This document shows positions 1,986-23,482 of a stretch of DNA of 64,000 bases, piece by piece. The notes under the pieces are model-generated. The model was given only the letters and a program-made list of their open reading frames with translations, searched no databases and was not told where the DNA came from. Within the stretch, counting starts at the first letter, position 1. Each line of letters begins with the position of its first letter. The stretch comes from Asanoa hainanensis. GTDB taxonomy: Bacteria; Actinomycetota; Actinomycetes; Mycobacteriales; Micromonosporaceae. Where the stretch lies: contig NZ_FZPH01000003.1 of the NCBI RefSeq assembly GCF_900188485.1, forward strand, positions 124,001 through 188,000. Direction: 5' to 3'. The position numbers and the translations under genes were made by a program.

Positions 1986-3494
1986 ATGACTGCAACGCGG
2001 GCCTACGGCGTGCCTGTCGTCGAAGACGGTGCACTCGTCTCGACCAACCCCGCCACCGGCGAGGAGGTGGGCCGGTTCCCGGTCGCCGACGCCGACGACG
2101 TGGCCCGCGCCGTCGAGCGCGCCCGGGAAGCCGCGGCCTTCTGGGTCGGGCTCGGCCACGCCGGTCGCCGCGCCCGGCTGCTGCGCTGGCGCGCCCTGCT
2201 CGCCCAGCGGGTCGAAGAGGTCGCCGGGCTGGTCAGCCGCGAGGGCGGCAAGCCGATCGCCGAGGCGATCGTGGAGACCGCGGCGGCCATCGACCACATC
2301 GACTGGGCCGCCCGCAACGCCAAGCGCGTGCTCGGCCCCCGCCGGGTGCGCGGCCGGCTGACGCTGGCCGAGTTCTCCGCCCACCTCGAATACCAGCCGA
2401 TGGGCGTGGTCGGGGTGATCGGCCCGTGGAACTACCCGGTGGTGACGCCGCTGGGCACGGTCGCCTACGCGCTCGCCGCCGGCAACACGGTGGTCTTCAA
2501 GCCGAGTGAATACACGCCGGCCGTCGGCCAATGGCTGGTTGACACGTTCGCCGAGGTGGTGCCCGAGCAGCCGGTGCTGCAGATCGTGCACGGCCTGGGC
2601 GAGGTCGGCGCCGCGCTGTGCCACGCGGGCGTCGACAAGGTCGCCTTCACAGGTTCCACGGCCACCGGCAAGAAGGTGATGGCCGCCTGCGCCGAGACGC
2701 TGACGCCGGTGCTGATCGAGGCCGGCGGCAAGGACGCACTGATCGTCGACGACGACGCCGACGTCGCGGCCGCCGCCGAGGCGTGCGTCTGGGGTGCGCT
2801 CACCAACGCCGGCCAGACCTGCCTGGCGATCGAGCGGGTGTACGCGGTAGCGCCGGTCTACGACGCCTTCGTCGCCGAGGTGGTCCGCCGCGCCGGTGCG
2901 CTCAAGGTCGGCTACGGCGAGGGCTACGACATCGGGCCGATCACCATGCCCAAGCAGATCGACATCATCCGGCGGCACATCGACGACGCGCTGGTCAACG
3001 GCGGCCGGGCCGTGCTGGGCGGCCGCGAGGCGGTCGAGCCGCCGTTCGTACACCCGACGATCCTGGTCGACGTGCCGGAGGACTCGGCGGCCGTGCGCGA
3101 GGAGACGTTCGGTCCGACGCTGACCATCAGCAAGGTCGCCGACGTCGACGAGGCGGTCCGGCTCGCCAACGCCTCCACGTACGGGCTGGGCGGCGCGGTC
3201 TTCGGCAAGCGGCGCGCGGTGGCCGCGGCCCGCCGGCTGCGCACGGGCATGGCCTCGGTCAACTCGGTGATCACCTTCATCGGCATGTCGTCGCTGCCGT
3301 TCGGCGGCGTCGGCAACTCCGGCTTCGGGCGCACCCACGGCGACGACGGGCTGCGCGAGTTCTCCCGCTCGAAGGCGATCACCACCCGGCGCGGCCCGTC
3401 GGCCCTCAAGGCGATGACCTTCGAGCGCACCCCGGCCCACGTCGCCCGGATCATCAAGGCGGTCAAGCTGGTGTACGGGCGCTCCGGTCGCTAG
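1986..3494 (+). CDS. NAD(P)-dependent aldehyde dehydrogenase
   Basis: 502 residues, the usual ALDH-superfamily length. Seen: PWNYP (cofactor binding), the VVFKPSE segment, the general base Glu245 in EAGGK, and the catalytic Cys279 in NAGQTC. The C terminus has the LPFGGVGNSGFGR segment. The family oxidises aldehydes to carboxylates; EAGGK instead of the common ELGGK and the overall pattern recall the succinate-semialdehyde or coniferyl type, but the substrate is not determined. The start at 1986 has no Shine-Dalgarno sequence and looks leaderless. The last 32 bases overlap the end of the convergent TPR gene. Confidence 0.93.
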   Translation: MTATRAYGVPVVEDGALVSTNPATGEEVGRFPVADADDVARAVERAREAAAFWVGLGHAGRRARLLRWRALLAQRVEEVAGLVSREGGKPIAEAIVETAAAIDHIDWAARNAKRVLGPRRVRGRLTLAEFSAHLEYQPMGVVGVIGPWNYPVVTPLGTVAYALAAGNTVVFKPSEYTPAVGQWLVDTFAEVVPEQPVLQIVHGLGEVGAALCHAGVDKVAFTGSTATGKKVMAACAETLTPVLIEAGGKDALIVDDDADVAAAAEACVWGALTNAGQTCLAIERVYAVAPVYDAFVAEVVRRAGALKVGYGEGYDIGPITMPKQIDIIRRHIDDALVNGGRAVLGGREAVEPPFVHPTILVDVPEDSAAVREETFGPTLTISKVADVDEAVRLANASTYGLGGAVFGKRRAVAAARRLRTGMASVNSVITFIGMSSLPFGGVGNSGFGRTHGDDGLREFSRSKAITTRRGPSALKAMTFERTPAHVARIIKAVKLVYGRSGR

Positions 3495-6192
3495 CCGCCG
3501 CGCGTTCCTTGGCCAGCCGCTCGCCGAGCTCGACGACCTGGGCCGAGTCGGCGACGACACCCGCCGTCACCGCTGACCGCAGGTCGTCTCCGGCGATCGC
3601 CAGCGTGGCCGGTGCCCGGGCCGGCGAGGTCGCCGGCAGCACCGCGATGCCCTGCGCGTAGGCGTCGGCCGCGCGTGCGCTCTCGCGGGCCGCCAGCCAG
3701 TTGAGGCCGATGTCGAACAGCAGCGCGGACCGCTCGTCGCTGGTCGGCAGGGCCAGCAGGTACGAGTCGGCCGCCTCCGCGTACCGGCCGAGCCGGTGCA
3801 GGCACCACCCGATGCCGTGCCGGGTCCACGACTCCTCCTCGCCGAACGGCTCGTACAGCTCGATCGCCGCGCGATAGTCGGCGTCCGCCTCGGCCAACCG
3901 CCCCATCGCCCAGCGCACGTCGCCGGTCCCCTGTGGACCCATCGGGTTGCCGGGCTCCTGCTCGCGCATGGCCTGGAACGCGGCCAACGCCTCTTCCGGC
4001 CGGCCGCCGTCGACGTAGCGCAGCGCGCGGCCCAACGCCCAGTGCGCCCACGGGTCGACCGGCTCGACCGCGACCGCCGCGCGGGCGGCCTCGACCGCGG
4101 CCGGCCAGTCGGCCAGCCCGCCGAACACCTCCGCGCGCAACCGGAGCAGTCCGGACGTGCGCCGCACGGCGAGCGCGCGGTCGATGGTGCGCAGCGCCGT
4201 GGCGACGTCGTCCCCGCGCGCCACGATCGTGGCCAGATCGGTCAGCGTGTTCGTGTCCGGTTGGACGTTGGCCGCCCGTTCGAGCGTCTCGACCGCGCGG
4301 GCGTGCTCGCCGAGCGCCGACTGGGCCCAACCCAACGAGCGGAGCAGGCCGACATGGTCGGGGCGCGCGACGAGCCCCCGCTCCGCCGTCGCCGCGGCCT
4401 CGGCGTAGCGGCGGGCGTCCTGCAGCGCGTCGGCGTACACCTCCTGCACGCCAGGGTCGTCCGGATAATCCGCCGCCGCCGCGCCGATCTCCGTGACCAG
4501 GTCGTCGCTGTCGACGGTGTCACGCAACGCCTCGCACAGCCACCACACCGCGAAGCTGGGCTCGGAGCCTCGGCCGATCGCGCGGCGCAGGTCCTCGAGC
4601 GCGCCGGCGGAGTCACCCAGTGCCTGCCGCGCGGCTCCCCGGCTGGCCAGCGCCCAGCCGTCGTCGGGCTGGAGCTCGATGGCCGCGGTCAGCGCGGTGA
4701 CGGCCTCGGCCAACCGGCCCTCGATCCGGAGCGCCTCCCCCAGGGCGGCGTGCGCCTCCCCGAGGTCGGGCTGGGCGCGGGCCGCGGCCGTCAGGTCCTC
4801 GACGGCCCGCTCCGTCTCGCCGACGGCCCGGAACAGCTGGCCGCGCAGCAACCGCACGAGCGGGGCGTCGGGCATTCCGGCGAGCGCCTGCTCGGCACAG
4901 GCCAGGGCTTCCTCGTACGCGCCGGTGTCGTACAGCAGCCGGCCCAGCTCGTACGCGAGTTGCGGATCGTCGGGGTTCGCGGCGCGGGCCGCCCGCAGCG
5001 CCTCCACCGCGTCGGCCGGGTCGCCGTCGCTGCGCAACCAGTGTGCGTAGCCGATCAGCCGCAGGACGGCCGGGTCGCCGGGGCTGATCGCCAGAGCCGC
5101 GTCCGCGTGCGCCATGGCGCGGTCGAGGTCGGCGTCGTCCCGGTCGGCCTGCGCGCGGAGGTAGTAGGCCTCGGCCGTGCTGAGCCGGATCCATCCGGTG
5201 CCCGGCTCGAGGGCGGAGGCCCGCTCCAGGTCGGCGACCGCCTCGTCGTGCCGGCCCTGGCCGAGTAGCGCCTGGCCGCGGTTCACCAGCGCGTACGCGT
5301 CGTCGGGGTCGACCGCCAAAGCCCGGTCGTACGCCGCCATCGCCGCCGTGTCGTCGCCGAGCAGGCGCCGCGCCGAACCGAGCAGCGCGTGTGCGCGGGC
5401 GTGCTCGGGTTCGAGCTCGATGACCTTGTCCAGCAGGGCGATCGCCGTGTCCGGCGCCTGGCCGAGCGCCCAGTCGGCGGTCTGTACCACCAACGGCACG
5501 AACTCGACTGTGTCCGCGTTGACGGCGATGGCCCGGCGCATCGTCGCCCCCAACTCGTCGAGGGCACCGGACGCGGCGCACGCCTTCGCCTTCTCCAGCA
5601 GCAGGTGGAGGTCCTTCGGGGTGCGGTCGACGGCCCTGGTGTAGGCGGTCACCGCCACATCGGCCCGGCCGGCCGCGAAGCTGAGCGCCCCCGCCGTCGC
5701 CCACGCCTCGGCGACCGCCGTCCGGTCGCTGGTGACGAGCTCGGCCCGGTCGAGGGCGACCAGCCAGTCGGTCGGGAAGGCGCGGGCGGCGGCGGCCAGC
5801 GTGCGCCGGGCGCCCGTGCGGTCGCGGGCGGCGAGCACCCGGCCCAGGCAGCGCCAGACGTCGGGGCCGGCCAGCTCCAGCATCAGGGCGCGGCGCAACG
5901 GTGGCTCGGCCTCGGCGAACCGACCGCTGAGGGCGAGCGCGATGCCGTACGCGGCGACGGAGCGCCGGCCGTCGGGTCGCTCGGCGGCGGCGAACCGGTC
6001 GGCGGCGGCGGCGAACAACGTGTCGTCCGCCGTCCCGACCCGGGCCTCGCACAGGCCGCGAAGAGTCAGCCCCACGCCCTGCGTCGCCGGGTCGGCCTGG
6101 TCACGGGCCTCGTCGGCGCTCTGCCGTGCCGTCGCGAAGTCGCCCGCGTGGTAGGCGGCCCAGGCCCGGACGAGCAGCTCGTTCGTCGTCAC
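3463..6192 (-). CDS. large tetratricopeptide-repeat protein
   Basis: 909 residues made almost wholly of TPR-like 34-residue helix pairs (recurring A-x-x-LG-x-x-L ... A-x-x-x-x-x-x-A-x-x-L-x-P units, for example ARAHALLGSARRLLGD and YALVNRGQALLGQGR). There is no signal peptide or membrane segment. The GTG at 6192 was chosen: it lies five bases after the stop of the upstream gene and GGTGAGG, which contains that stop, is its Shine-Dalgarno. It is the last gene of a four-gene operon with two metallopeptidase-like proteins and a membrane protein, so it probably acts as the scaffold or substrate-binding partner of that system. The exact function is unknown. Confidence 0.85.
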   Translation of the reverse strand: MTTNELLVRAWAAYHAGDFATARQSADEARDQADPATQGVGLTLRGLCEARVGTADDTLFAAAADRFAAAERPDGRRSVAAYGIALALSGRFAEAEPPLRRALMLELAGPDVWRCLGRVLAARDRTGARRTLAAAARAFPTDWLVALDRAELVTSDRTAVAEAWATAGALSFAAGRADVAVTAYTRAVDRTPKDLHLLLEKAKACAASGALDELGATMRRAIAVNADTVEFVPLVVQTADWALGQAPDTAIALLDKVIELEPEHARAHALLGSARRLLGDDTAAMAAYDRALAVDPDDAYALVNRGQALLGQGRHDEAVADLERASALEPGTGWIRLSTAEAYYLRAQADRDDADLDRAMAHADAALAISPGDPAVLRLIGYAHWLRSDGDPADAVEALRAARAANPDDPQLAYELGRLLYDTGAYEEALACAEQALAGMPDAPLVRLLRGQLFRAVGETERAVEDLTAAARAQPDLGEAHAALGEALRIEGRLAEAVTALTAAIELQPDDGWALASRGAARQALGDSAGALEDLRRAIGRGSEPSFAVWWLCEALRDTVDSDDLVTEIGAAAADYPDDPGVQEVYADALQDARRYAEAAATAERGLVARPDHVGLLRSLGWAQSALGEHARAVETLERAANVQPDTNTLTDLATIVARGDDVATALRTIDRALAVRRTSGLLRLRAEVFGGLADWPAAVEAARAAVAVEPVDPWAHWALGRALRYVDGGRPEEALAAFQAMREQEPGNPMGPQGTGDVRWAMGRLAEADADYRAAIELYEPFGEEESWTRHGIGWCLHRLGRYAEAADSYLLALPTSDERSALLFDIGLNWLAARESARAADAYAQGIAVLPATSPARAPATLAIAGDDLRSAVTAGVVADSAQVVELGERLAKERAAASDRSARTPA

Positions 6193-6197
6193 CGGCC

Positions 6198-7505
6198 TCA
6201 CCGTTTCCCGTAGGGAGCCTGGACCGGACGGCCGGACTGGCGGTCGCGGGCGGGTCCCGTCTTGCGCGGCCACGGCAGCGCGCGGGCGGCGTCGGCGATC
6301 TGCCGCACCGCGTCGGCGTCGTGCGGGTCGGTCAGCATCAGCCGCGCGGCCCAGGCGGCGTTGAGCCGCCCACGCGCCGTCGCCTCGCTTCCCGTGCCCT
6401 CGGTGAGCGCCGTGTGTGGCCCGGCGGCCTCCTTCTCCCACTGCGCCGAGTCGAAGCCGGGGAACACGCCGATGTTGCGCAGGGTCCCGCGCGCCTCGGC
6501 GACGAACGCGTCGAGCTCGGCCCGCCGGCCCGGCTCCGGGTCGGCACCCCGTTCGGTGACCGCGCCGCGCCAGCAGTCGGCGACCTCCTGGATCACCGCG
6601 GCCGCCATGCCGTCACCGCTCGTCGCGCGCAGCAGTTCGAGGATGACGTACGCGCGGTCCACATCATCGCCGCTGTGGGGGCGCATCCGGAGCAAGAGCA
6701 CGGCGCAGGCGTACGCCGGCCCGAGCGCGTAGGCGGCATAGGCGTCGGCGGCCAGTCCGCGCCGCTCCGGGGTGGGACTGTCGCCGAGCAGCCCGCGGGC
6801 GAGCTGGGACGTGTGGCCCCAGGCCAGGCCGGCCTCGTGCCCGAAGAGCGGGACGTCCCAGATCGTCCACTCCGGGAACCAGAGCATCACGAGGTCGCCG
6901 AGGGACTGGCCCCCGACCAGCTCGGCCGGGCGCGCCGGCACCGAGCGCAACGGCGCGGCCAGCTCGTCGAGCAGGCGGTCGGTCAGCTCGCTGACCCGAT
7001 CGTCGAGGCCGGTGTCGCGCAGCGTCAGCCCGCCGAGCAGGTCGACGTAGTCGGCGAACAACCGCCGCGCCGTCGTGTCGACGAGCCCGTCGACCGCCAC
7101 CCAGGCGGCGGCCCGGTCCAGCGTGCCGGCGCGGAACCCCTCCTCGACCCGGTCGAGCTCGGCGATGATCGCGTCGCACCGCACGCTCAGCGTGTCGGTG
7201 TTCATCAGCCTGATCATCGAGCCGTTGAGCTGTTCGAGCATCACGCCGGCCTGGTCGACCTTGCGGTCCAGGTCGATCAGCAGCGCGTCGAGGTCGCCGA
7301 GCACCTCGACCTCGGGTGCGTCGGCGCCGCGCCGGTAGTCGAGGATCAACCCCCGGGCGTCGAGCAGGCCGTCCCGGATCTCCTTGCGGATCCCCCGGAT
7401 GCCGTCGAGCCTGCTGTGCCGGCTCTCCGCCAGGTCGGCGACGCGCTTCACCTTGTCGACGTCGTCGCGCAGCTCGGCCATCCGCACCGTGAGCAGGTCA
7501 AGCAT
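6198..7505 (-). CDS. catalytically degenerate paralogue of the adjacent HELGH protein
   Basis: 435 residues. The first 140 are helical and coiled-coil-like. Residues 200-275 align by eye with the neighbour at 7498-8577: WDVPLFGHEAGL (217-228) matches WGLPILVHELGH, and AADAYAAYALGPAYACAV matches GELFADVFATWALGPAYPFAV. The second His of HExxH is lost (HEAGL) and the Glu of the second block is replaced by Ala, so zinc-peptidase activity is not expected. The ATG at 7505 overlaps the previous stop by eight bases; a GTG at 7523 is the alternative. It is probably a pseudoenzyme partner or regulator of its active neighbour, by inference. Confidence 0.8.
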   Translation of the reverse strand: MLDLLTVRMAELRDDVDKVKRVADLAESRHSRLDGIRGIRKEIRDGLLDARGLILDYRRGADAPEVEVLGDLDALLIDLDRKVDQAGVMLEQLNGSMIRLMNTDTLSVRCDAIIAELDRVEEGFRAGTLDRAAAWVAVDGLVDTTARRLFADYVDLLGGLTLRDTGLDDRVSELTDRLLDELAAPLRSVPARPAELVGGQSLGDLVMLWFPEWTIWDVPLFGHEAGLAWGHTSQLARGLLGDSPTPERRGLAADAYAAYALGPAYACAVLLLRMRPHSGDDVDRAYVILELLRATSGDGMAAAVIQEVADCWRGAVTERGADPEPGRRAELDAFVAEARGTLRNIGVFPGFDSAQWEKEAAGPHTALTEGTGSEATARGRLNAAWAARLMLTDPHDADAVRQIADAARALPWPRKTGPARDRQSGRPVQAPYGKR

Positions 7506-8577
7506 CGGCGGGGTCCAGGGCACGCAGGGCGGCGGCGCTGACGTTTCGCAGCTTCGCCGGCTTCGCCTCGTCGTGGGCCAGCCGCCACCGCCACGCCGCG
7601 GCCACCACCTCGACCGGGCTGCCCTTGGCGGGCGTGCCGGCGTCGAGCGCCGCGACCAGCGGGTCGAGGCCGCCCAGCGGGTCGAAGCGCAGCCGCGCCG
7701 GCGCGTTGCGGTCGAGCAGGTCGACCAGGCCGCGGGCGTCGCGCTCGGCCTTCTTCGGTGGATGGTCCCCGAGGCCGTTCAGTGTGGACCAGCGCCGGGC
7801 GACCTGGTCGGCACCGCGTCGGTGCCCGGCCGCGGTCAACGGGTCGGTGGCCAGCTCGGCGGTCACCCGCAGGGCCGCCACCATCGTCCACACCCGCCGG
7901 TCCCAGGACGGGTGGGTGCGGGTCGCGTCGTCGAACCGGTCGGGCCGGGCGCGCAGCGTGATGACCGCGAACGGATAGGCCGGCCCCAGCGCCCAGGTGG
8001 CGAAGACGTCCGCGAACAGCTCGCCGAGCAGCCGGTCGTCCGCGCGGTCGAGGTGGAACAGCACCGGCCGGGCGTTGCGGTCGCCGGGCTCCGGCAGCGC
8101 GTCGGCGACCAGGTGACCCAGCTCGTGCACGAGGATCGGCAGGCCCCAGACGTCGACGTCGGGGAAGCGCATCCGGACCAGCCCGGCCATCCGCTCGAAG
8201 CGTTCGCCGTCGGCGACCGACAACAGCGGGCCGCGGCCGATCCCGGTGGCCTCGACCAGCGCGTCGAGCAGGGTCTCGGCGGCCACGGTGACGCTTCGGT
8301 AGAAGGGGTGGCCACGCAGCAGGATGCCTTCCAGCACGGCGAGCGCGGCGGCTTTGACCGGCGCGATCCGGCGTGCCCGCAGCAGGTCCAGACCGGCCCA
8401 GTCGCCGTCGGGCAGGTCTTCGAGATCACGCACGCGATCGCGGAGCAGCAGCGCGAAGTCGTCGCGTACCGCCGCGGTCGTGGTGCCCAACCGCTCCTCG
8501 CGCCGCAGTGCCTCGCCGACCTGGGCCAGCTCGGTGACCTCCTGCCGGACCTGGGTGGCGAACCACTGGCCGGTCAT
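7498..8577 (-). CDS. HExxH zinc-metallopeptidase-like protein
   Basis: 359 residues with HELGH at 151-155 in WGLPILVHELGHLVADAL, followed about 30 residues later by LLGELFADVFATWALGPAY. Glu186 or Asp190 there could be the third zinc ligand, as in gluzincin-type peptidases. No signal peptide or membrane span, so cytoplasmic. I do not recognise a named family. The start ATG at 8577 overlaps the upstream stop (ATGA). The long open frame that continues upstream of 8577 is an Arg/Pro/Gly-rich shadow of the preceding gene and was discarded. Confidence 0.82.
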   Translation of the reverse strand: MTGQWFATQVRQEVTELAQVGEALRREERLGTTTAAVRDDFALLLRDRVRDLEDLPDGDWAGLDLLRARRIAPVKAAALAVLEGILLRGHPFYRSVTVAAETLLDALVEATGIGRGPLLSVADGERFERMAGLVRMRFPDVDVWGLPILVHELGHLVADALPEPGDRNARPVLFHLDRADDRLLGELFADVFATWALGPAYPFAVITLRARPDRFDDATRTHPSWDRRVWTMVAALRVTAELATDPLTAAGHRRGADQVARRWSTLNGLGDHPPKKAERDARGLVDLLDRNAPARLRFDPLGGLDPLVAALDAGTPAKGSPVEVVAAAWRWRLAHDEAKPAKLRNVSAAALRALDPADA

Positions 8578-9668
8578 GCGGTGCGCGCGGCGTCCTGGAG
8601 GATCAGCCGGGCACCGCGGACCCGACCGACGCTGACCGTGGTGTCGATGTAGTCGATCGCGAGCACCACCGCGACCGCGCCGATCAGCAACTCGGCGCCG
8701 AGCAGGGCGAGCGGCAGCCACGGCACGGCCAGCCCGAGGTGGCCCTGCACCACGAGGATCCCGCCGACGGCGGCCTGGGCCAGCGCGAGCTTGCCGATCA
8801 CGCTGTCGAACCGGTCGGCGAGCGCTTCTAGGGCCTCGGTGCCGCCGTCGAGCCGGCCCAGGTCGAGCCCTTCTCTGCTGAGCAGCGAGGCGGCCTCCTC
8901 GCGGGCGTGCTCGGCTCCGATCGCGCCGCCGAGCAGGGCGGCGCCGGCTCCGGCCTCGCCCGCCCGGTCGGCCAGGGCGACCAGCCGGTCCCGCGCGGTC
9001 TCCAGCCAGGTCGCGTCGACCAGCCGGCGCAGCGCGTCGAGGGCGGCGGACAGGGCGCGCAGGCCCAGCCGGATCAGCCGGCCACCGATGTTGTCGAGGA
9101 AGAGCTGCTTGCTGACCTTCTCCCAGGCTTCCTTCCACTGCGCGGGCGCCTTGCCGGCGATGCTCTTGATCGGGCCGGCGACCACGTCGGCGGTGCCGGT
9201 GGCGATCGCGTCCAGGGTGTCGCCGAGCCGCTCGCGGATGGTCTCCACGGCTTCCGGGAGGTCGTGCGAGACGAGCCTTGTCTGTTGAAAGCCCTGGTGC
9301 CGGGGTGGCTCCTCGAGGGCGACGGTGGTGCGGCGCAGGTCGGCGAGGGCCGTGTCGAGATCGGTCTCCGTTGTCGCCGCGCCGGCGGCCAGGGCGACCT
9401 CGCCGAGCCGGAGCTGACCCGCGACCACGGCGAGCAGGGTCTCCGGGTCGGTCGTCGTGCGCTCGGCCGCGTTGTCGCCTGCTGGCGCCTCGAAGAAGCC
9501 GGTCTCGACCCGGTTGAGGTCGGCGAGTCCACTCTCGATCGATCGGGCCAGCCGGTCCGCGGCGTCGTCGTGCCCTTCGCCGGTGGCCAGCGCGTCCTGA
9601 AGATCACGGCCAGCCCGGTGGACGGCGGTGGCCGACCGCACGAACCGTCCGATCTCGACATCACTCAC
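8574..9668 (-). CDS. helical protein with C-terminal membrane hairpin
   Basis: 364 residues. The long N-terminal part is rich in Ala, Leu, Glu and Arg heptads, predicted helical or coiled coil. Two hydrophobic stretches near the C terminus (around residues 290-345, LALAQAAVGGILVV and LPLALLGAELLIGAVAVVLAI) look like a transmembrane hairpin. GTG start at 9668. It is the first gene of the four-gene operon running to 3463, so it may tether the metallopeptidase and TPR proteins to the membrane. No family recognised. Confidence 0.78.
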   Translation of the reverse strand: MSDVEIGRFVRSATAVHRAGRDLQDALATGEGHDDAADRLARSIESGLADLNRVETGFFEAPAGDNAAERTTTDPETLLAVVAGQLRLGEVALAAGAATTETDLDTALADLRRTTVALEEPPRHQGFQQTRLVSHDLPEAVETIRERLGDTLDAIATGTADVVAGPIKSIAGKAPAQWKEAWEKVSKQLFLDNIGGRLIRLGLRALSAALDALRRLVDATWLETARDRLVALADRAGEAGAGAALLGGAIGAEHAREEAASLLSREGLDLGRLDGGTEALEALADRFDSVIGKLALAQAAVGGILVVQGHLGLAVPWLPLALLGAELLIGAVAVVLAIDYIDTTVSVGRVRGARLILQDAARTA

Positions 9669-9704: not shown

Positions 9705-10364
9705 TCAGAACAACGTCAGCTCGTCGCGCTCGATGCCGCGCAGCTTGTCGTAGTCGACGACCACACACCGGATGCCGCGGTCCTCGGCGAGCACGCGGGC
9801 CTGCGGTTTGATCTCCTGAGCGGCGAAGATGCCGGCCACCGGGGCCAGCAGCGGGTCCCGGTTCATCAGTTCGAGATAACGGGTGAGCTGCTCGACGCCG
9901 TCGATCTCACCCCGGCGCTTGACCTCGACCGCGACCGAGCCACCCTGCTGGTCCTTGCAGAGCAGGTCGACCGGGCCGATCGCGGTCATGTACTCGCGCC
10001 GGACCAGCGTGTAGCCCTCGCCGAACGTGGTCGGGTTGGCGGCCAGCAGCTCTTGGAGGTGCGCCTCGACACCGTCCTTGACCAGGCCAGGATCGACACC
10101 CAGCTCGTACGACGTGTCCTGGAAGATCTCTTCCAGGGTGATCCGCAGCTCCTCGCCGGCCTTGTTGACCACCCGCCAGACGCCGGGCTCCTCCTGGATC
10201 CGGCACGGCGGGCTCATCCAGTTGAGCGGCTTGTAGGCACGGTCGTCGGCGTGCACCGACACCGAGCCGTCGGCCTTGACCATCAGCAACCGGGTGGCCG
10301 TGGGCAGGTGGGCGGAGAGCCGTCCGACGTAGTCGACGGAGCACCTCGCGATGACTAGACGCAC
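9705..10364 (-). CDS. nucS: mismatch-specific endonuclease NucS/EndoMS
   Basis: 219 residues, the full length of actinobacterial NucS. The N terminus [11 protein letters not shown] and the [10 protein letters not shown] segment form the DNA-binding domain. The C-terminal PD-(D/E)xK nuclease core shows Asp133 (GPVDLL) and Glu147-x-Lys149 (VAVEVK). The last residues DELTLF resemble the sliding-clamp-binding tail. In this phylum NucS cuts both strands at G-T, G-G and T-T mismatches and stands in for MutS/MutL. GTG start at 10364 with no Shine-Dalgarno but a TAGGCT hexamer six bases upstream, so probably leaderless. Confidence 0.96.
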
Positions 10365-11015: not shown

Positions 11016-11093
11016 GTCGGCGCGGCGCGCTCACCTCTCGCATTCCGGCGATAACGTAGCGTCATCGGTTCGATGCTGCGTGGAGGGGGAACC

Positions 11094-11354
11094 GTGGCGA
11101 GCGTTGCCGAGGTCAAGGCCGCCATCGACGTCGCGATGGCACATGTCCAGGAAGGACAGGAGGCCGTCCGCGCCGCGAACGACAAGCTCGACGCGGCCCA
11201 GGCCAGCCTGGCGGCGGCGGTCGACGGCAGCGCACACGAGTCGGTGGCGGCGGCGCGCTCGGCGCTCGCCCAGGCGGCCACCGAGCTCGACGACTGCATG
11301 ACGGCGACGCTGGGCGCGATGGAGCAGGCCCAGACCTACGCCGCGGCGCTGTGA
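11094..11354 (+). CDS. small helical-hairpin protein of the FtsK-like unit
   Basis: 86 residues, Ala- and Gln-rich, predicted as two long helices joined by a turn near VDGSAHES (about 50-57). The size and shape recall WXG100/ESX-type secreted proteins, but no Trp-x-Gly motif and no Trp at all is present. The GTG start follows a strong GGAGGGGG five bases upstream; an earlier in-frame codon at 11073 lacks such a site. Its stop overlaps the next start (GTGA). As first gene of the unit with an FtsK/HerA-like ATPase it may be its cargo or a coiled-coil adaptor. I recall short Micromonosporales DUF6244 proteins as similar, unchecked. Confidence 0.72.
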   Translation: MASVAEVKAAIDVAMAHVQEGQEAVRAANDKLDAAQASLAAAVDGSAHESVAAARSALAQAATELDDCMTATLGAMEQAQTYAAAL

Positions 11355-12070
11355 GCCTGCTCGCCGCGCTGGCCAGCCGGGTGGTGACGGTGCGTTCGGA
11401 CCTGCCGGTGGTGGAGATCGACGTGGCGTCGTCGCGGCTGCGATCGGCGTTGTCCCTGCTGGCGGCGACGCTCGCGGCGAGCTCGGGGCCCTCACCCGCT
11501 TTGTTGCTGGCTTCCGCGAGCTCCCACCTGGACGCGGCGGCGGGTGCGTTGGGGCGGGCCGGAGATGAGCTGTCGCGATATCTCGCGTCCGTGGGTGTGG
11601 TGTCTGGCGTTCCGGTTCCGTCCGCGGTGGCCGTCTCGGGGTCCTGCCCCTGGGCGGATCGGGTCGACGTGCTGACCGCTCAGGTCGGTGTGGCGCGGCC
11701 CTCGGTCGATGACCGGCTCTCGGTTTCCGCGGTGCTCAGGTCGGCGGTGTCCGCCGCGTCGCGCGGTGATCGGGTGGCGCTGCGGCAGTCGCTCGTAGTG
11801 GCGCCCGATTCGGTCGGGTGGTCGCTCGCGGCGCACGCTGCTGGGCGGCTGGGATCGGTCGCACCCGGCTCTTTGCAACGGGACTCCCTCGCGCTGTTGC
11901 CGCGGCTGCTTCCGGGGCTCCCGGCGTCGGATGGGGCCGCCCTGGTGGCCCAGGCGTTGCGGTTGCCGGGCGATCCGGTCTCGGCTCATCCCGCGGACGT
12001 GGCGGCCGTCGGGGTCGTGCTCGTGTCGGTGGTGCTTTCGCTGACCGGCGCCTCCCCCGAGGACCTTTGA
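11351..12070 (+). CDS. uncharacterised protein of the FtsK-like unit
   Basis: 239 residues with GTG start overlapping the previous stop. Rich in Ser, Ala, Leu and Val; residues 30-80 look helical (heptad-like AALASRVVTVRS ... LDAAAGALGRAGDEL), similar in style to the neighbouring small protein. No signal peptide, no clear membrane span and no motif I recognise. It ends one base before the ATPase gene starts, so it is tightly co-transcribed with it. Its role is unknown. Confidence 0.7.
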   Translation: MSLLAALASRVVTVRSDLPVVEIDVASSRLRSALSLLAATLAASSGPSPALLLASASSHLDAAAGALGRAGDELSRYLASVGVVSGVPVPSAVAVSGSCPWADRVDVLTAQVGVARPSVDDRLSVSAVLRSAVSAASRGDRVALRQSLVVAPDSVGWSLAAHAAGRLGSVAPGSLQRDSLALLPRLLPGLPASDGAALVAQALRLPGDPVSAHPADVAAVGVVLVSVVLSLTGASPEDL

Positions 12071-12071
12071 C

Positions 12072-14726
12072 GTGGCCAGCGCGCGATCGCGGCTGGTGGC
12101 CGAGGTGCGTGCGTCACTCGCGGCCGCGCGCGGCCAGGCCCGCACGGCGTCGGCGGTAGCGGAGTCCCGCCGGGCGGCGGCGCTCGACCGGCTGCGGGCG
12201 GTCCGGGACGCGCACCTGGCCTGTGTCAACGGCCTGGGCGCGCAGCGCGAGCGGGCGAGGCGGGCGATCGAGGCGGACTTCGTCGCGTCGGCGCGCCGGC
12301 TGGCCGACGAGTTGGCGGCGCACGAGCCGGACCTGGGCGTGGTGCGGCTCGGCACAGTGGCGGCGCCCGGCTGCCCGGTCCTGATGCCGGCGCTGGTGCC
12401 CCTGCTCGACCACGGGCATCTGTGGTTCACCGGCGCGGCGTCCGATGTGGACTCCGTCGTTCGGCTCGTGCTGCTGCGGGTGCTGGGTGCCGCCCCGCCC
12501 GGCTCGGTGCGGTTGACCGTGTACGACCCGGAGCGGCTGGGCGGCACGCTGTCCGGTTTCGCGCCGCTGGGCGCGGCGTCGCTGGTGCGGTTCGTCGGCC
12601 CGGGCGGGTTGGCGGGTGCGCTGGACGCGCTCGTCGACGAGATCCAGCGGCTCAACGCCCTGGTGCTGGCCGCGGGACATACGTCGGTGTCCGCGCTCGC
12701 GCCCCGGCCGGCGCCGTGGTCCGTGGTGGTGCTGCTCGGCGACGCGGCGACGGCCGACGAGCTGACGCCCGCCGCTTCGGCACAGCTCGACCGGGTCGTG
12801 CGGTTGGGCCCGCCGTGCGGCATCCACGTGGTCGGTCGTGGGTTGCCGCTGCCGTCGTCGCCGACGGTCGTGCGGGTCTCGGTCGATGGCCGGCGAGCCG
12901 TCTCGGCCGCGGTCGCGGAGCTGCCGATCACCCTGGACGCGCCGCCGTCGGCCGACGAGATCGCCGCCCGCTGCCGGGCCGTGGCGTCGGCGGCGACCTC
13001 GGGCCCGCCCGCCGCGACGTTCTCTTCGCTGCTGCCCGGGTCGTATTGGACGTGCGTCGCGGCCGAGGAGCTGTCGGCCCCGGTCGGCACTTCGCTAGGT
13101 GGCTCGTCGCTGGTTTCGATCGGGCTGGGCGACGACCCACCGCACGCGCTGATCGGCGGCCCGTCGGGTTCGGGCAAGACCAACATGGTGTACGCCTGGC
13201 TGGGTGCCCTGTGCGCCCGCTACTCCCCGGACGAGCTCGCGCTGTACCTGCTGGACTTCAAGGAGGGCGTGTCGTTCGCGCGGTTCGCGCCGAGTGTGCG
13301 GGACGAGAGCTGGCTGCCGCACGTACGCCTGGTCGGGGTGAACATCAACAACGACCGGGAGTTCGGCCTGGCGCTGCTCCGGCACCTGGGAGACGAGCTG
13401 CGCCGCCGGGCCGCCGCGGCCAAACGCTTCGACGCGACCAAGCTGGCGGAGCTGCGGGCCGAGGACCCGGGCTCGAGCTGGCCCCGGATCGTCGCGGTGA
13501 TCGACGAGTTCCAGGTGCTGTTGACCGGCCGAGACGCGGTGACGACGGAGGCGGTGACCCTGCTGGAGGACCTGGCCCGGCGGGGCCGCTCCCAGGGCAT
13601 CCACCTGGTGCTGGCGTCGCAGGACGTATCCGGCATCGAGGCGCTGTGGGGCCGCGCGGGCCTGGTCGCACAGTTCACCCTGCGGGTAGCTCTCCCGAAG
13701 GCCCGCCGAATCCTGGCCGAGACGAACCTGGCGGCGGAGACGATCCCGCGCTTCACGGCGGTGGTCAACGCCGACTCGGGGGTGCCGCCGGCCAACCAGG
13801 TGGTACGCGTACCGGACGCCAGCGACCGCACCACCTGGCGAGCGTTGCAGCACGCGCTGTGGTCGCGCCGCCAGTCGGGGAGCCAGCCCCCACGCCTCTT
13901 CGACGGCGACGCGGTGCCGTCGCTGCCGCCGTCCGGGGGCCCGGGCGCCGCCGTCCTGGGAGAGACGATCGACGTCGGCGCGCGACCAGCGGTGTTCCCG
14001 CTGACCCGGGCGCCGGGCCGCAACCTGGCCGTACTCGGCACCCGGGCCACAGAAGCGACCGCGATCCTGTCGGCGGCGGCCCTGTCCCTGTCCGTCGTTG
14101 ACCGCCAGGAACGGCAGGCCGCCGGCGAACAGCCCGACCCGGCTGGCGAAGCCGGCCCACCGTTGTTCAGCGTGGTCTGCCTGGACGATGGGGTTCTCCC
14201 GGCCGCGACGGCGTTGTGCGCGGCCTTACCGGGCGGGCGGTTCTTCGACCGGTCCACAGTGGCCGATTTCGTGGCCAGCCTCGACTCGTCGCCGGGCCCG
14301 TCGAGCCAGCACGTGGTGATCGGCTTCGCATGGGACGCCCGCCCGCCAGGCATCGACCTCAAACCGCTGCTGAGCCGAGGCCCGGAACAGGGAATCCACG
14401 TCCTGGGCTGGTGGCGCACGGTAGCCCGCCTCCGCGACGACCTGGGCGGCCCAGGCTCCCGAACAGACGCGATCGGCGGGTGGGTAGCGCTCGACGTACA
14501 CGGCCCGGACCTGTCCCCACTGTCCCCGCAGCCCGGCGGCCCAACCTGGTACCCACGCGAACGCCGAGCCCTCTTCTTCGACCGCAGCACGGACCGAGCC
14601 CCCCAGGTGATCGTCCCCTACGAGATCCCGCCGGACCGCCTGACCGCGCCCCCGACCGCCCTACCGTCCCAAAACCGCGGCGTCCGCCCCACGGACGCAG
14701 CCAACGCGGATGGAGGCACCCGATGA
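12072..14726 (+). CDS. FtsK/HerA-like ATPase
   Basis: 884 residues. Residues 1-95 are an Ala/Arg-rich coiled coil. Residues 100-340 form a mixed domain that ends at VSIGLGDDPPHALIGG. The motor core follows: Walker A GPSGSGKT (363-370), the LLDFKEGVSFARF segment typical of FtsK/SpoIIIE and EccC-type ATPases, Walker B IVAVIDEF (473-480), then GIHLVLASQD. There is no FtsK membrane domain and no gamma domain. The C-terminal 250 residues look like a second, degenerate nucleotide-binding-type fold. GTG start one base after the preceding stop. By family it should move DNA or protein through a hexameric ring; which of the two is not shown. Confidence 0.88.
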   Translation: MASARSRLVAEVRASLAAARGQARTASAVAESRRAAALDRLRAVRDAHLACVNGLGAQRERARRAIEADFVASARRLADELAAHEPDLGVVRLGTVAAPGCPVLMPALVPLLDHGHLWFTGAASDVDSVVRLVLLRVLGAAPPGSVRLTVYDPERLGGTLSGFAPLGAASLVRFVGPGGLAGALDALVDEIQRLNALVLAAGHTSVSALAPRPAPWSVVVLLGDAATADELTPAASAQLDRVVRLGPPCGIHVVGRGLPLPSSPTVVRVSVDGRRAVSAAVAELPITLDAPPSADEIAARCRAVASAATSGPPAATFSSLLPGSYWTCVAAEELSAPVGTSLGGSSLVSIGLGDDPPHALIGGPSGSGKTNMVYAWLGALCARYSPDELALYLLDFKEGVSFARFAPSVRDESWLPHVRLVGVNINNDREFGLALLRHLGDELRRRAAAAKRFDATKLAELRAEDPGSSWPRIVAVIDEFQVLLTGRDAVTTEAVTLLEDLARRGRSQGIHLVLASQDVSGIEALWGRAGLVAQFTLRVALPKARRILAETNLAAETIPRFTAVVNADSGVPPANQVVRVPDASDRTTWRALQHALWSRRQSGSQPPRLFDGDAVPSLPPSGGPGAAVLGETIDVGARPAVFPLTRAPGRNLAVLGTRATEATAILSAAALSLSVVDRQERQAAGEQPDPAGEAGPPLFSVVCLDDGVLPAATALCAALPGGRFFDRSTVADFVASLDSSPGPSSQHVVIGFAWDARPPGIDLKPLLSRGPEQGIHVLGWWRTVARLRDDLGGPGSRTDAIGGWVALDVHGPDLSPLSPQPGGPTWYPRERRALFFDRSTDRAPQVIVPYEIPPDRLTAPPTALPSQNRGVRPTDAANADGGTR

Positions 14727-14760
14727 TCTCTCGCCCCGCAGCCCGATCAGTGGGGCAGCC

Positions 14761-15450
14761 GTGAGTGACTACCGCGACCTGATGACCGAGCTTGCCGCGA
14801 CGGTGACGCGGCGGGCCACGAACCTGGCGATCGCCGAGCGGGCGTACCACGACGGGATGGCCGCCGCAGCGGCCGAACTCCGCCGCGCCGAGCAGGACGC
14901 GAAGGAGACCGATCGCCGCGCCGCAGCGGCGGCGTGCGCGGTAGTCGAGGTCGACCGCGAGGCCGAGCGGCTCTGGTTGGACCTCCAACGCACCCGAGTC
15001 TGGCCGGGCCAGCGCCCCGGCGCCGCGCCGGAGCCGGCGCCGGCCACCGCCCAGCCGCCCCTGGACGTGGACGACGACGCCAGCATCGCCATGCTGGCCC
15101 GCGTAGCCCACCGCATCCACGGCGGTCCACCGCGCATCGCGCTAGGCGACAACCGAAAACTGCCCGCCCTGGTGCCCCCTCTCCTGCCCCTGGTCGGCGC
15201 CGCGGCCACGGCGATCACCGCGACCATGGCCAGCGCCCTGGCGGCCCTGGCCACCCTCGACCCACCCGGCGCGGGCGTCCTGCGCCTGCTGGGTTGGCTC
15301 GCCTACTTCGCCTCCCCCTTCGCCGGCATTCCCATCGCCACCACCTGGGCCCGCCGCCGCTGGTCGGCCCGCCTCGACACTGGCGGCGTGGCCCTCATCG
15401 TCCTGGGCGGCCTGACCGCCCTCAGCGCATTGATCGTCACCCTCGCCTAA
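14761..15450 (+). CDS. coiled-coil membrane protein of the FtsK-like unit
   Basis: 229 residues from the GTG at 14761 (GGGG five bases upstream). Residues 1-75 are a charged, Ala-rich helix (RRATNLAIAERAYHDGMAAAAAELRRAEQDAKE). A Pro-rich linker follows, then about three membrane spans in the last 90 residues (LVPPLLPLVGAAATAITATMAS, VLRLLGWLAYFASPFAG, GGVALIVLGGLTALSALIV). The soluble ATPase next door has no membrane domain of its own, so this protein could be its membrane anchor or channel. An in-frame ATG at 14710 overlaps the ATPase end and has no ribosome-binding site. Confidence 0.75.
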   Translation: MSDYRDLMTELAATVTRRATNLAIAERAYHDGMAAAAAELRRAEQDAKETDRRAAAAACAVVEVDREAERLWLDLQRTRVWPGQRPGAAPEPAPATAQPPLDVDDDASIAMLARVAHRIHGGPPRIALGDNRKLPALVPPLLPLVGAAATAITATMASALAALATLDPPGAGVLRLLGWLAYFASPFAGIPIATTWARRRWSARLDTGGVALIVLGGLTALSALIVTLA

Positions 15451-18728: not shown

Positions 18729-19546
18729 CCGCTAGTACGCAAACGCCGGCCGCGCCGGGTCCGCTGGCGCTCGGCCTGCGGCAGGGTGGCCTCGAGGTCA
18801 AGCAGTTCACCCGCAGCCGAGAGGCCGTGGTCTTCACGATGGCCTTCCCGGCCATCATGATCGTCATCTTCGCGTCGATCTTCGATGGCGAGATCGGCGG
18901 CGGGGTCAACTTCACCCAATACTTCATCACCGGCATGATCGCGACCGGGCTGCTGTCCGTCGGCTTCCAGAGCCTCGCGATCCAGATCCCGGCCGAGCGC
19001 GACCGCGGCGTGCTCAAGCGCCTGCGGGGCACCCCGATGCCCAAGTGGGTCTACTTCGCCGGCAAAGTGATCATGGTCTTGATCGTCGGCGTGGTGGAGA
19101 CGGCGATCCTGCTCGCGGTCTCTGCGCTCTTCTTCGACCTGGACCTACCGAGCACGGGCGCCCGCTGGCTGACCTTCCTATGGGTCGGGCTCCTGGGCAT
19201 CTCGGCCTGCACGCTGCTGGGCATCGCCTTCTCGTCGGTGGCCCGCACCGCCCGCAGCGCCCCCGCGGTGGTTACCCCGGTCGCCCTGATCCTGCAGTTC
19301 ATCTCGGGCGTGTTCTTCGTCTTCACGAGCCTCCCGACCTGGATGCAGCACGTCGCCGCGGTCTTCCCGCTGAAATGGATGTGCCAGGGCCTGCGCTCGG
19401 TCTTCCTACCCGACTCCTTCGCCGCCCAAGAGCCGGGCGGCACATGGGAGCTGGGCAAGGTCGCCCTGATCCTGGGCGCCTGGTGCGTGGTCGGCCTGAT
19501 CCTCTGCATCACCACGTTCCGCTGGACGACCAAGCGCGACGGCTGA
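18725..19546 (+). CDS. ABC-2 type permease
   Basis: 273 residues with six hydrophobic spans, including FTMAFPAIMIVIFASIF, VIMVLIVGVVETAILLAV and the final VALILGAWCVVGLILCITTF. ERDRGVLKRLRGTPMP is the typical cytosolic segment of ABC-2 permeases. The ATG at 18725 overlaps the ATPase stop. It pairs with the preceding ATPase as a two-gene exporter. The longer frame reaching upstream of 18725 is a shadow inside the ATPase gene. Confidence 0.9.
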   Translation: MTASTQTPAAPGPLALGLRQGGLEVKQFTRSREAVVFTMAFPAIMIVIFASIFDGEIGGGVNFTQYFITGMIATGLLSVGFQSLAIQIPAERDRGVLKRLRGTPMPKWVYFAGKVIMVLIVGVVETAILLAVSALFFDLDLPSTGARWLTFLWVGLLGISACTLLGIAFSSVARTARSAPAVVTPVALILQFISGVFFVFTSLPTWMQHVAAVFPLKWMCQGLRSVFLPDSFAAQEPGGTWELGKVALILGAWCVVGLILCITTFRWTTKRDG

Positions 19547-20207
19547 CCCGGACCCAAACCCAAGACAACGCTTGACCCTTGCCCCGCGCCACCGCAACCA
19601 AGATCCAGGCTCAGCCGGCCCGCGGACCTTGCCCGGCACCACCCGGGCCCCCGCGCCGCCGCGCCACCAAGATCCAGGCCCGGCCGGGCGGGAGCTGACC
19701 GGTGCGGCGGTCGACCATCCGGCGCGGGGCCGAACAGGCTCAGCAGCTCGGCCGGCTGGGCTCGCGGACCTTGCCCGGCACCACCCGGGCCGCCGCGCCA
19801 CCAAGATCCAGATTCAGCCGGCCTGCGGACCTTGGCCGGCACCACCCGCGCCGTCGCGCCGCCGGGCCGCCGGGCTGCCGGGCCGCCGGGCCGCCGGGCC
19901 GCCGGGCCGCCGGGCCGCCGGGCCGCCGGGCCGCCGGGCCGCCGGGCCGCCGGGCCGCCGGGCCGCCGCGACCAAGATCCTGGTCCAGCTGGCGCCCGGA
20001 CGTTGCCCGGCACCACCCCGGGGCCCGGCGCGCGGCCACGGCAACGCCTGGCAAGGGTCAGGCGATTGCCTAGGAGGCCGAGTGGGCATAGTAACGATCA
20101 AGCCTCGTCCGAGGCCCAAGTCGACCCCCCGACCGGCGAGCACGCTCAGGCCGGATCAAGGCGAGCCAAAGACGGCCCGAATCGGCCCGCCGGGCTATCC
20201 AGGAACG
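19547..20207. repeat. gene-free spacer with degenerate ~65-bp repeats
   Basis: This 661-base spacer has no credible gene. A unit combining ACCAAGATCCAG, then CAGCCGGCC, then CGGACCTTGCCCGGCACC and ACCCGGGCC recurs with changes near 19605-19650, 19668-19680, 19763-19800, 19800-19850 and 19970-20025. The 9-base array at 19856-19969 is inserted within the last interval. The open frames here are Ala/Gly/Pro/Arg shadows of the repeat. Origin and role unknown. Confidence 0.6.
19856..19969. repeat. 9-bp tandem array (GCCGCCGGG)n
   Basis: About 12 nearly perfect copies of GCCGCCGGG in a row; one copy carries a single C-to-T change near 19875. All three forward frames and all three reverse frames stay open through it, which makes long spurious Ala-Gly-Pro-Arg frames on both strands. 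It lies in the spacer between the ABC exporter and the adenosyltransferase gene. Confidence 0.85.
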
Positions 20208-20859: not shown

Positions 20860-22188
20860 ATGGCCGACGTGGATCTGATCCAGGTCGAGGGCGGCGCGCG
20901 GCTCGCCGGCGAGGTAGCCGTCGTCGGCGCCAAGAACTCCGCGCTCAAGCTGATGGCGGCGACGCTGCTGGCTCCCGGGCGCAGCGTGATCACCAATGTG
21001 CCGCGCATCACCGATATCGCGATCATGGCGGAAGTCCTGCGCAGGCTCGGGTGTCAGGTGGAGATCACGGCAGACGAGGTGCCCGTGGGACGCGAGGGGC
21101 CGGCGCCCTCGGTCGTGGTCACGATCGACGTACCCGACGAACCGGGCACCGAGGCCGACTACGACCTCGTGCGCCGCCTGCGGGCCTCGATCGCGGTACT
21201 CGGGCCGCTGCTCGCCCGACGCGGCTACGTGCGGGTGGCCCACCCGGGCGGCGACGCGATCGGCTCGCGCGGCCTGGACATGCACGTCGCGGGCCTGGCC
21301 CGAATGGGCGCGGAGATCTCCGGCGAGCACGGCTTCGTGATCGCATCGGCGCCGCAGGGCCTGCAGGGCGCGACCATCTGGCTCGACTTCCCCAGCGTCG
21401 GCGCCACCGAGAACCTGGTCATGGCCGCCGTCCTGGCCAAGGGCAGCACCGAGATCGACAACGCCGCGCGCGAGCCGGAGATCGTCGACATCTGCGAGAT
21501 GCTGATCGCGATGGGCGCCCGCATCGAGGGCGTCGGCAGCTCGACGCTGCGCATCGAGGGCGTCGAGGCCCTGACCCCGGTGCGGCACGCCACCGTCGGC
21601 GACCGCATCGTGGCCGGCACGTGGGCCTTCGGCGCGGCCATGACCCGCGGCGACGTCCTGGTGACGGGCGTCAACCCGGCGTTCCTAGAGATCGCGCTCG
21701 ACAAGCTCGTGTCCGCCGGCGGCGTGGTCGAAACCCAAGAAGCGGCCTTCCGGGTACGCATGGACGATCGCCCCAAAGCCGTAGACATCGTCACGCTGCC
21801 GTTCCCAGGCTTCGCGACCGACCTGCTGCCGATGGCGATCGGCCTGGCCGCGGTCAGCGACGGCGCCTCCCTGGTCACCGAGAACATCTTCGACGGCCGC
21901 TTCATGTTCATCAACGAAATGGCCCGCCTGGGTGCGGACATCAAAACCGACGGCCACCACGCAGTGGTACGGGGCCGCGAACGCCTGTCCAGCGCCCCCG
22001 TCCGAGCCACCGACATCCGCGCGGGCGCCGGCCTGGTGATCGCCGCCCTGTGCTCCGATGGCACCACCGAGGTCTCCCACGTCCACCACATCGACCGCGG
22101 CTACCCAGACTTCGTAGGCGACCTAGCGGCCCTAGGAGTAGAAGTCCACCGCGAACAGGCCCCAGAAGACCCCCAATTCTCCTTCTAA
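20860..22188 (+). CDS. murA: UDP-N-acetylglucosamine 1-carboxyvinyltransferase
   Basis: 442 residues. It transfers enolpyruvate from PEP to UDP-GlcNAc, the first committed step of peptidoglycan synthesis. Seen: KNSALK (25-30), the FPSVGATEN segment, TDLLPM and the inside-out barrel repeats. The active-site loop reads PGGDAIGSR with Asp132 where most MurA have the Cys that fosfomycin alkylates; the same Asp gives natural fosfomycin resistance in Mycobacterium tuberculosis. ATG at 20860; the frame extends to an earlier ATG at 20770 but that would overlap the adenosyltransferase gene and lacks family similarity. Confidence 0.96.
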
Positions 22189-23398
22189 CCACCAGTTCCT
22201 CACCCCGCGAACCCGTCGAGGCCGCAGGCAAGGAGCAGCCCTGCCGAGCAAAAGGCAGCAGCAGCCCCGCGACGCCGAGCGGCAGCGACCGCAGGCAACG
22301 AGCGGCGGCCGGCGACGGGCAACGGCCGCCGGGAACCGCGCAGCGGGCAGAGGCCAGCGACAACGGCCGCTGCCAGCGACCGGCGAACGGTGACCGCGAC
22401 GGGCAGCGGGCCACGAGCGAAGGCCAACGGGCCACGAACGCGGGCAGCGGGCCACGCACGCGGGGCACGGACACGGGCAGCGGGCCACGCACGCGGGCCA
22501 CGGGCAGCTGCGGACACCGGCTACGGCCGACGTCGACGACGGGCGGCGACAGCCGGCAACGGCCGCGGACGCCGACCGGCGACCGTGACCGCGGCAGGCA
22601 GCGGGACACGGACACGGACACGGACACGGACACGGGCCACAGGCCGCTGCGGACACCGGCTACGGCCGACGTCGACGACGGGCGGCGACAGCCGGCAACG
22701 GCCGCGGACGCCGACCGGCGACCGTGACCGCGGCAGGCAGCGGGCCACGGACACGGGCCACGGACACGGACACGGGCCACAGGCCGCTGCGGACACCGGC
22801 TACGGCCGGCGTCGACGACGGCCGGCAACGGCCGAGGACGCCGACCGGCGAGCGTAACCGCGGCAGGCAGCGTGAACGGACGCCGGCCACGGACGCGGGC
22901 AGCGGGCAGCTGCGGGCACTGGCTACGCCCGACGTCTACGACGGGCGGCGACAGCGGACAACGGCAGCAGTGGGCAACGGCGACCGGCGGGCGGCTGCGG
23001 GCGCCGACGGCAAACGGCAGCAACGGGCGGCCGCTGCGAGGACAGCGACCGGCGAGGAGGAGCGGCAGGCCGCGACGACGGGCGCGGCTGCGGGCGCCGA
23101 CGGCAAACGGCAGCCACGGGCGGCGGCTGCGAGGACAGCGACCGGCGAGGACGAGCGGCAGGCCGCGACGACGGGCGACGATGAGCGTCCGCCCGCTGCG
23201 GCGCGCCGTGACGACCGCGGGTGCAGCGGACTGCGCCGTCTCGCGCCGCGTTATGCGGCGAAAGGGATGGAGTGCCGCCGAAGTGGGCGACACGCCCACG
23301 GCGCGCGACACGCGCGGAGGGAACCCACCGCGAAGATCAGCCAAGGGACTGTGACCCGCGAAGCCGGCGCCGTAGGCGAACAAGGATGAGCTGGGTCA
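22189..23398. repeat. 1.2-kb gene-free GC-rich repeat region downstream of murA
   Basis: No credible gene. The stretch is built from short words (GGGCCACG, GGACACGG, GGCAGCGG) and longer repeats. A unit starting CTGCGGACACCGGCTACGGC begins at 22508, 22647, 22787 and, decayed, 22910 (period about 139-140, then 123). A separate 93-base unit is duplicated exactly in phase at 22992-23084 and 23085-23177 with only a few changes. Frames on both strands are long but are Arg/Pro/Ala/Gly-rich repeats with no recognisable domain. In Mycobacterium the rRNA operon follows murA; no rRNA sequence is seen here. Confidence 0.7.
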
Positions 23399-23482
23399 GG
23401 GCGGGGGAGGAGGTTGTGGGTGCCGACAATAGGGGTCGCGCTCTTTGCGGCCTGTCGGCACCCACAACCTCCTCCCCCGCCC
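23399..23482. repeat. 30-bp perfect inverted repeat
   Basis: Arms 23399-23428 and 23453-23482 are exact reverse complements over 30 bases, each containing GTGGGTGCCGACA or its complement, around a 24-base centre that can itself partly pair (GGTCGC with GCGGCC). It lies 54 bases past the stop of the minus-strand gene at 23537. It could be a strong terminator or a small non-autonomous mobile element; no T-run or flanking target duplication was found by eye. Confidence 0.75.

Follow-up and report, generated by a model that had tools for sequence, protein, structure and literature searches.

Four genes lie together on the minus strand of the window, the 64,000-nucleotide stretch of Asanoa hainanensis DNA analysed here (contig NZ_FZPH01000003.1, positions 124,001 to 188,000), and form a cassette read in the order mem, pep, par, and TPR (Table 1). 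The tight packing that a first, sequence-only reading had noted, with all genes overlapping or within 5 bases of each other, was borne out: mem and pep share 4 bases (ATGA), the overlap of pep with par is 8 bases, and a gap of 5 bases separates par from TPR. Across the four genes, GC content is 0.91-0.95 at codon position 3 but 0.50-0.55 at position 2; with this bias, and with orthologues arranged alike in three further Asanoa genomes, the frames have the look of genuine genes. The start of TPR lies most likely at 6192, giving a protein of 909 aa instead of the listed 992-aa frame. Upstream of the cassette, nucS lies 36 bases from mem, and an aldehyde dehydrogenase gene is found downstream in convergent orientation.

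Table 1. Features of the cassette and its surroundings, in window coordinates.
Feature	Position	Strand	Description
mem	8574-9668	-	First cassette gene; ORF of 364 aa with a hydrophobic C-terminal region at ~289-345
pep	7498-8577	-	359 aa; zinc-peptidase-like, predicted active
HELGH motif of pep	8113-8127	-	Residues 151-155, read from the sequence
ELFAD block of pep	8008-8022	-	Third zinc ligand (E186) and second-shell Asp (D190), both predicted
par	6198-7505	-	435 aa; pep paralogue, zinc site lost, N-terminal extension
HEAGL in par	6825-6839	-	Residues 223-227; former HExxH
GLAAD in par	6744-6758	-	Residues 250-254; Glu ligand lost, Asp kept
TPR	3463-6192	-	909 aa; tetratricopeptide repeats (Pfam)
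nucS	9705-10364		NF002876
FtsK-like cluster	11073-15450	+	Conserved in Asanoa; encodes an FtsK/SpoIIIE-type ATPase (PF01580, E 1.8e-16) and three proteins of 93, 239, and 246 aa
Repeat-bearing frames	~19500-20200 and 22000-23400		Short repeated peptides in open frames (PGRRAAGP..., RQRPRTPTGD...)

The pep product had been taken for an active-type peptidase with HELGH at 151-155 and an acidic block downstream, and these residues, the latter as E186xxxD190, were confirmed in the sequence. When eight pep and eight par proteins were aligned, H151, E152, H155, E186, and D190 were found intact in 8/8 pep; HExxH with a downstream Glu, the sequence signature of a gluzincin-type zincin, is thus present in all eight orthologues. 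A chance occurrence of the motif was rejected, the site being kept in every pep and par being homologous. Among the 283 called genes of loci >10 kb, a set enriched for HExxH by the way in which the loci were fetched, 11 carry the motif and ten of these also have a downstream ExxxD. No Pfam, NCBIfam, or PADLOC model was matched by mem, pep, or par at E 0.1, and the curated peptidase families in Pfam and NCBIfam, M48 included, yielded no match for pep or par at that threshold. The AlphaFold model of pep is mostly helical (mean pLDDT 79.7, poor at residues 119-137) and places HELGH inside helix 143-160 and E186/D190 inside helix 184-197, which in the model would be the layout expected for an HExxH...E site. 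The putative zinc site is argued from the motif and its conservation. A record of A. ishikariensis holds a pep 93% identical to that of the window.

When pep was used as a query against its own genome, par was recovered at E 2.3e-5 with 30% identity. Profile comparison of six pep with seven par sequences gave 99.2% (E 2.6e-19, 262 columns), and that of seven with seven gave 99.2% by hhalign (E 6.5e-20, 192 columns), the match taking in the HExxH and ExxxD segments and a GPAY motif. Judged by these profiles, par is a true paralogue of pep. The corresponding blocks of the window par read HEAGL at 223-227 and AADAYAAYALGPAYA, and the sequence-only reading had concluded from them that the zinc site is gone while the fold is kept. 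The former point was upheld: the equivalents of H155 and E186 have disappeared in 8/8 par, with D190 retained in 8/8. The first His and Glu positions vary, being HE in the four Asanoa (HEAGL), YD in G848, RR in G935, RR in G1022, and RS in G1054. The claim of a kept fold stood in part, in that the homology is established by the sequence profiles; the AlphaFold model of par, in which a similar order of helices can be seen by eye after residue 217 together with long N-terminal helices, is of low confidence (pLDDT 62.4). An N-terminal extension of ~75 residues relative to pep is visible in the alignment. In trees that included four outgroup sequences, par formed a single clade (FastTree support 0.954, UFBoot 91) and pep was separated into two subtypes with the outgroup falling between them, which makes both the root and the date of the duplication uncertain. 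On the simplest reading, the dead copy would have arisen once and persisted as the cassette diverged into two subtypes.

Two hydrophobic segments, 289-307 and 320-338, were located in mem by hydropathy, and C-terminal segments of this kind were detected in 9/9 mem proteins. The same scan returned none in seven pep and seven TPR proteins and one in 1/7 par, G1054 being left out of all of these counts. The C-terminal region of mem probably comprises two membrane helices, to judge by hydropathy. The large gene had been called a giant TPR protein, an identity that was endorsed, at the corrected length, by Pfam TPR_2 (E 5.1e-47) and TPR_16 (E 1.3e-45); all models above cut-off were TPR-like, and in PADLOC TPR-type models were matched.

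Conservation of the four genes as a unit in other actinobacterial genomes had been put forward as a check on their acting together. The order mem, pep, par, TPR proved identical in all eight genomes found to hold both pep and par, a TPR counterpart being found in every one, with spacings of -26 to +28 bases. These comprise four Asanoa, three genomes from two other genera of the family (G848, G935, and G1022), and one from another family (G1054). A search of 61 relatives, six of them Asanoa, detected pep in four, all Asanoa. At E 0.1, 11 of 250 family genomes were matched, strongly in the case of the four Asanoa, G848, and G935; weak fragments in G901, G854, G998, G971, and G861 (E 0.005-0.06) were left out of the counts. 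The mem gene was found in 8/250 of the same genomes, namely six Asanoa, G848, and G935. Within the genus of G935, the cassette is present in 2/67 genomes (G935 and G1022), and within that of G848 in 1/6 (G848). Three of 210 order genomes were matched by par: its own, G1054, and G401 (6.5e-4). A pep search of 394 class genomes and a joint-profile search of 396 phylum genomes each returned the own genome only; since just a few first-look candidates were scored per genome in these large and overlapping sets, such absences are not proven. No description of the cassette was recognised in the literature searched, which lay mostly outside subscription journals.

The cassette is flanked by nucS and the aldehyde dehydrogenase gene at one site in all four Asanoa carriers. 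Its surroundings differ among Asanoa, G848, G935, G1022, and G1054; the gene adjoining mem in G848 is presumably miaB-like, judged from its first residues. Neither nucS nor the FtsK-like cluster was accepted as part of the cassette, neither having been found beside the cassettes of these four genomes outside Asanoa. The FtsK-like cluster, which adjoins nucS and a DUF4126 gene, also occurs in both Asanoa genomes devoid of pep, and its 239-aa and 246-aa proteins gave no Pfam match at E 0.01.

These two Asanoa genomes, G002 and G004, retain nucS and mem at the site, and the aldehyde dehydrogenase gene was called in G002. In the two corresponding loci, mem stands without pep, par, and TPR (L046 8548-9567 and L047 9897-10952). 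No pep match was obtained genome-wide in either G002 or G004, and tblastn over the 20-kb stretch (E 0.01) detected no trace of the pep, par, and TPR genes, the three genes thus being missing together in 2/6 Asanoa genomes. Loss of the trio within Asanoa is likelier than gain, because G848, G935, G1022, and G1054 possess all four genes. In a tree of seven flanking proteins covering five of the six genomes, G004 grouped with G000 and G001 (0.956) and G002 was placed elsewhere, a topology that would mean two losses; in the mem tree, G004 and G002 lie at the base of Asanoa and the carriers group together (0.856). Two separate losses are suggested by the former tree and not by the latter. The presence of mem without its three partners in 2/6 Asanoa points to a separable role or a remnant, and counts against a single complex of all four proteins. 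That the three genes are missing jointly and mem persists would fit a trio acting together, with mem as its anchor or target.

Pairwise dN/dS values within Asanoa, which are rough because dS may be underestimated at high GC, amounted to 0.20-0.48 for mem (15 pairs), and to 0.28-0.49 for pep, 0.20-0.54 for par, and 0.36-0.63 for TPR (six pairs each). All are below 1, and par appears to be constrained much like pep. Identities to G003 were 97% for nucS, 92% for the aldehyde dehydrogenase, 81% for mem and pep, 68% for par, and 57% for TPR, as compared with 78% for the neighbouring FtsK-like gene and 66% for the 239-aa gene. The cassette therefore changes faster than nucS, and not faster than all of its neighbours.

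More distant relatives were uncovered outside the cassette. Within the genus of G935, the pep profile retrieved two proteins in other genomes at 8.7e-6 and 6.2e-5. Both are HExGH proteins (L057 and L058) encoded in a row with a giant protein and, beyond it, a CHAT protein, with CHAT above cut-off at E 6.1e-20 in L057 and 1.3e-19 in L058; AAA_22 was above cut-off in the giant protein of L058, and no ATPase match was obtained for that of L057. In PADLOC, the HExGH protein of L058 matched peptidase_U41 (1.8e-5) and its CHAT neighbour SAVED_CHAT (1.8e-10). A search of 296 genomes matched nine: the own genome, the pairs L076 and L077, L078 and L079, and L080 and L081, the PF04228 peptidase L082 that served as control, and L083, which was dropped as its called gene has no HExxH. 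L076 and L077 are two further HExGH relatives from other families, situated after giant proteins, of which that of L076 was scanned and showed NACHT and TPR matches below curated cut-offs; the scan for CHAT covered L057 and L058. By hhalign, the pep profile aligned to the four HExGH proteins (L057, L058, L076, and L077) at 97.2% with E 3.2e-11 over 122 columns, around a common core of HExGH...ExFxD...GxxY, as against 26% over 19 columns for the control HExGH peptidase. The match of par to the HExGH proteins of L057 and L058 was weak (20%, E 0.0011). From these alignments, pep is apparently one member of a broader family devoid of a Pfam model, some members of which reside in what look like conflict loci.

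Other architectures were encountered among the remaining matches. In L080 (439-2463, minus strand), an HExxH protein is fused at its C terminus to a dCTP-deaminase-like domain (PF22769, E 7.8e-33), and an HExxH protein with a C-terminal dCTP-deaminase-like part was recognised by eye in L081 (8408-10387, plus strand); dCTP deaminases are known in phage defence. A recurring cluster around an HEVxHN protein was seen in two different actinobacterial families (L078 8651-13896 and L079 4106-11026), in which partners of 414 and 379 aa with similar sequence stand beside the HEVxHN protein together with other genes. The HEVxHN protein of L079 aligned to the giant-associated HExGH family at 98.7%.

An active peptidase accompanied by a dead homologous subunit is familiar from the mitochondrial processing peptidase (M16) and from ClpP/ClpR, whose motifs and folds are other than HExxH with a downstream Glu. 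In pep and par a homologous pair was likewise found in which one member has lost catalytic residues and the two are conserved together, the sequence mark of an active/pseudo-peptidase pair; a complex is here only proposed. The HExxH motif is shared with M48 (PF01435) and PF04228, from which pep is set apart by the lack of a Pfam match at E 0.1. The loci with CHAT and giant proteins come closer, for their peptidase core is homologous to pep and a large partner is adjacent, with weak TPR matches in L076. Unlike them, the cassette lacks genes for CHAT and an ATPase, in whose place stand mem, par, and a TPR-only protein; a scan of window genes that took in the cassette, nucS, DUF4126, the FtsK-like cluster, and the aldehyde dehydrogenase detected neither a CHAT nor a giant ATPase-like gene. 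VMAP/MoxR-vWA and related conflict systems include, in passages of two published analyses, metallopeptidases, zincin-like and inactive zincin-like domains, and TPRs (PMC7159879, PMC8195603). They differ from the present locus in having vWA and MoxR, and no vWA, MoxR, VMAP-type, or STAND Pfam match was returned for the 11 window genes scanned between 1986 and 15450.

On balance we lean towards the view that the four genes encode a single membrane-recruited complex for regulated proteolysis with a pseudo-peptidase subunit, perhaps of a conflict or stress type. The sequence-only reading had likewise spoken of regulated proteolysis or stress signalling; of that claim, the conserved four-gene unit, the homologous pair, and the site loss shared by all par were substantiated, and the complex itself is carried forward as a proposal. 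We infer zinc binding, proteolysis, physical association, location, and the direction of regulation. In the mechanism envisaged, pep would act in the cytosol as a zinc endopeptidase, representing an undescribed and mostly helical HExxH...ExxxD family, and par would be its catalytically dead sister, a pseudo-enzyme subunit that may pair with pep, or present or mask the substrate, acting through its kept fold and extra N-terminal helices. The TPR protein could serve as scaffold or sensor, and the C-terminal membrane segments of mem would recruit the complex to the membrane's inner face, unless mem is itself the output. There is precedent for a dead subunit that holds the substrate, restrains its active partner, or completes the fold of the partner.

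The distant link to the HExGH proteins that accompany CHAT and giant proteins tilts the guess as to function, without proof, towards regulation of a conflict or cell-death type. In a system of that kind, par and the TPR protein would restrain pep, which upon triggering would cleave a membrane effector (mem) or a host target, in analogy to effectors activated by proteases; this possibility is worth keeping in view, though it is not a probable one. The position of the nearest outside relatives of pep beside giant proteins, with CHAT in L057 and L058, speaks for it, as do the PADLOC matches in L058, the patchy distribution (4/6 Asanoa, and 2/67 and 1/6 genomes of two other genera), and the changing neighbours of the cassette. 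Against this, the relationship is distant, and for par weak; the cassette holds no effector domain, NTPase, or CHAT, and PADLOC is silent on mem, pep, and par; an unsystematic look recognised no mobile element beside it; and its evolution, faster than that of nucS, does not outpace the neighbouring FtsK-like cluster. The fixed nucS/aldehyde dehydrogenase site of the four Asanoa carriers would fit housekeeping or envelope-stress proteolysis in some Micromonosporaceae and their kin, directed at a membrane or cytosolic target during growth or sporulation. Such a role is nonetheless decidedly unlikely, as strong matches are confined to 6/250 family genomes and two Asanoa lack the trio, a rarity which implies that the cassette is not essential to the group.

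The mostly helical model of pep and its lack of a Pfam peptidase family at E 0.1 would also agree with a protein that is no peptidase at all, its HExxH zinc being structural or a remnant and pep and par being scaffold proteins. The contrast between the two paralogues makes this very improbable: five site residues are kept in 8/8 pep and H155 and E186 are lost in 8/8 par, and E152, the predicted catalytic Glu, would be needless in a structural site.

Under the favoured reading of a regulated proteolysis complex, should both the complex and cleavage prove true, a new zinc-peptidase branch would be added to the bacterial protease-switch systems. A bolder and rather unlikely version holds that the cassette is a new actinobacterial conflict or cell-death module, in which a zinc peptidase is checked by a co-evolved dead copy on a TPR sensor and releases or processes a membrane effector; if true, it would be a zincin counterpart to the control of a caspase-type protease by a pseudo-protease. 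The locus offers a peptidase-like family with neither a Pfam nor an NCBIfam model and a fixed active/dead pair in one operon, and the pep/par pair is a natural test case for the control of proteolysis by a pseudo-peptidase.

Elsewhere in the window, the short peptide units that recur in the open frames at the foot of Table 1 suggest tandem repeats.
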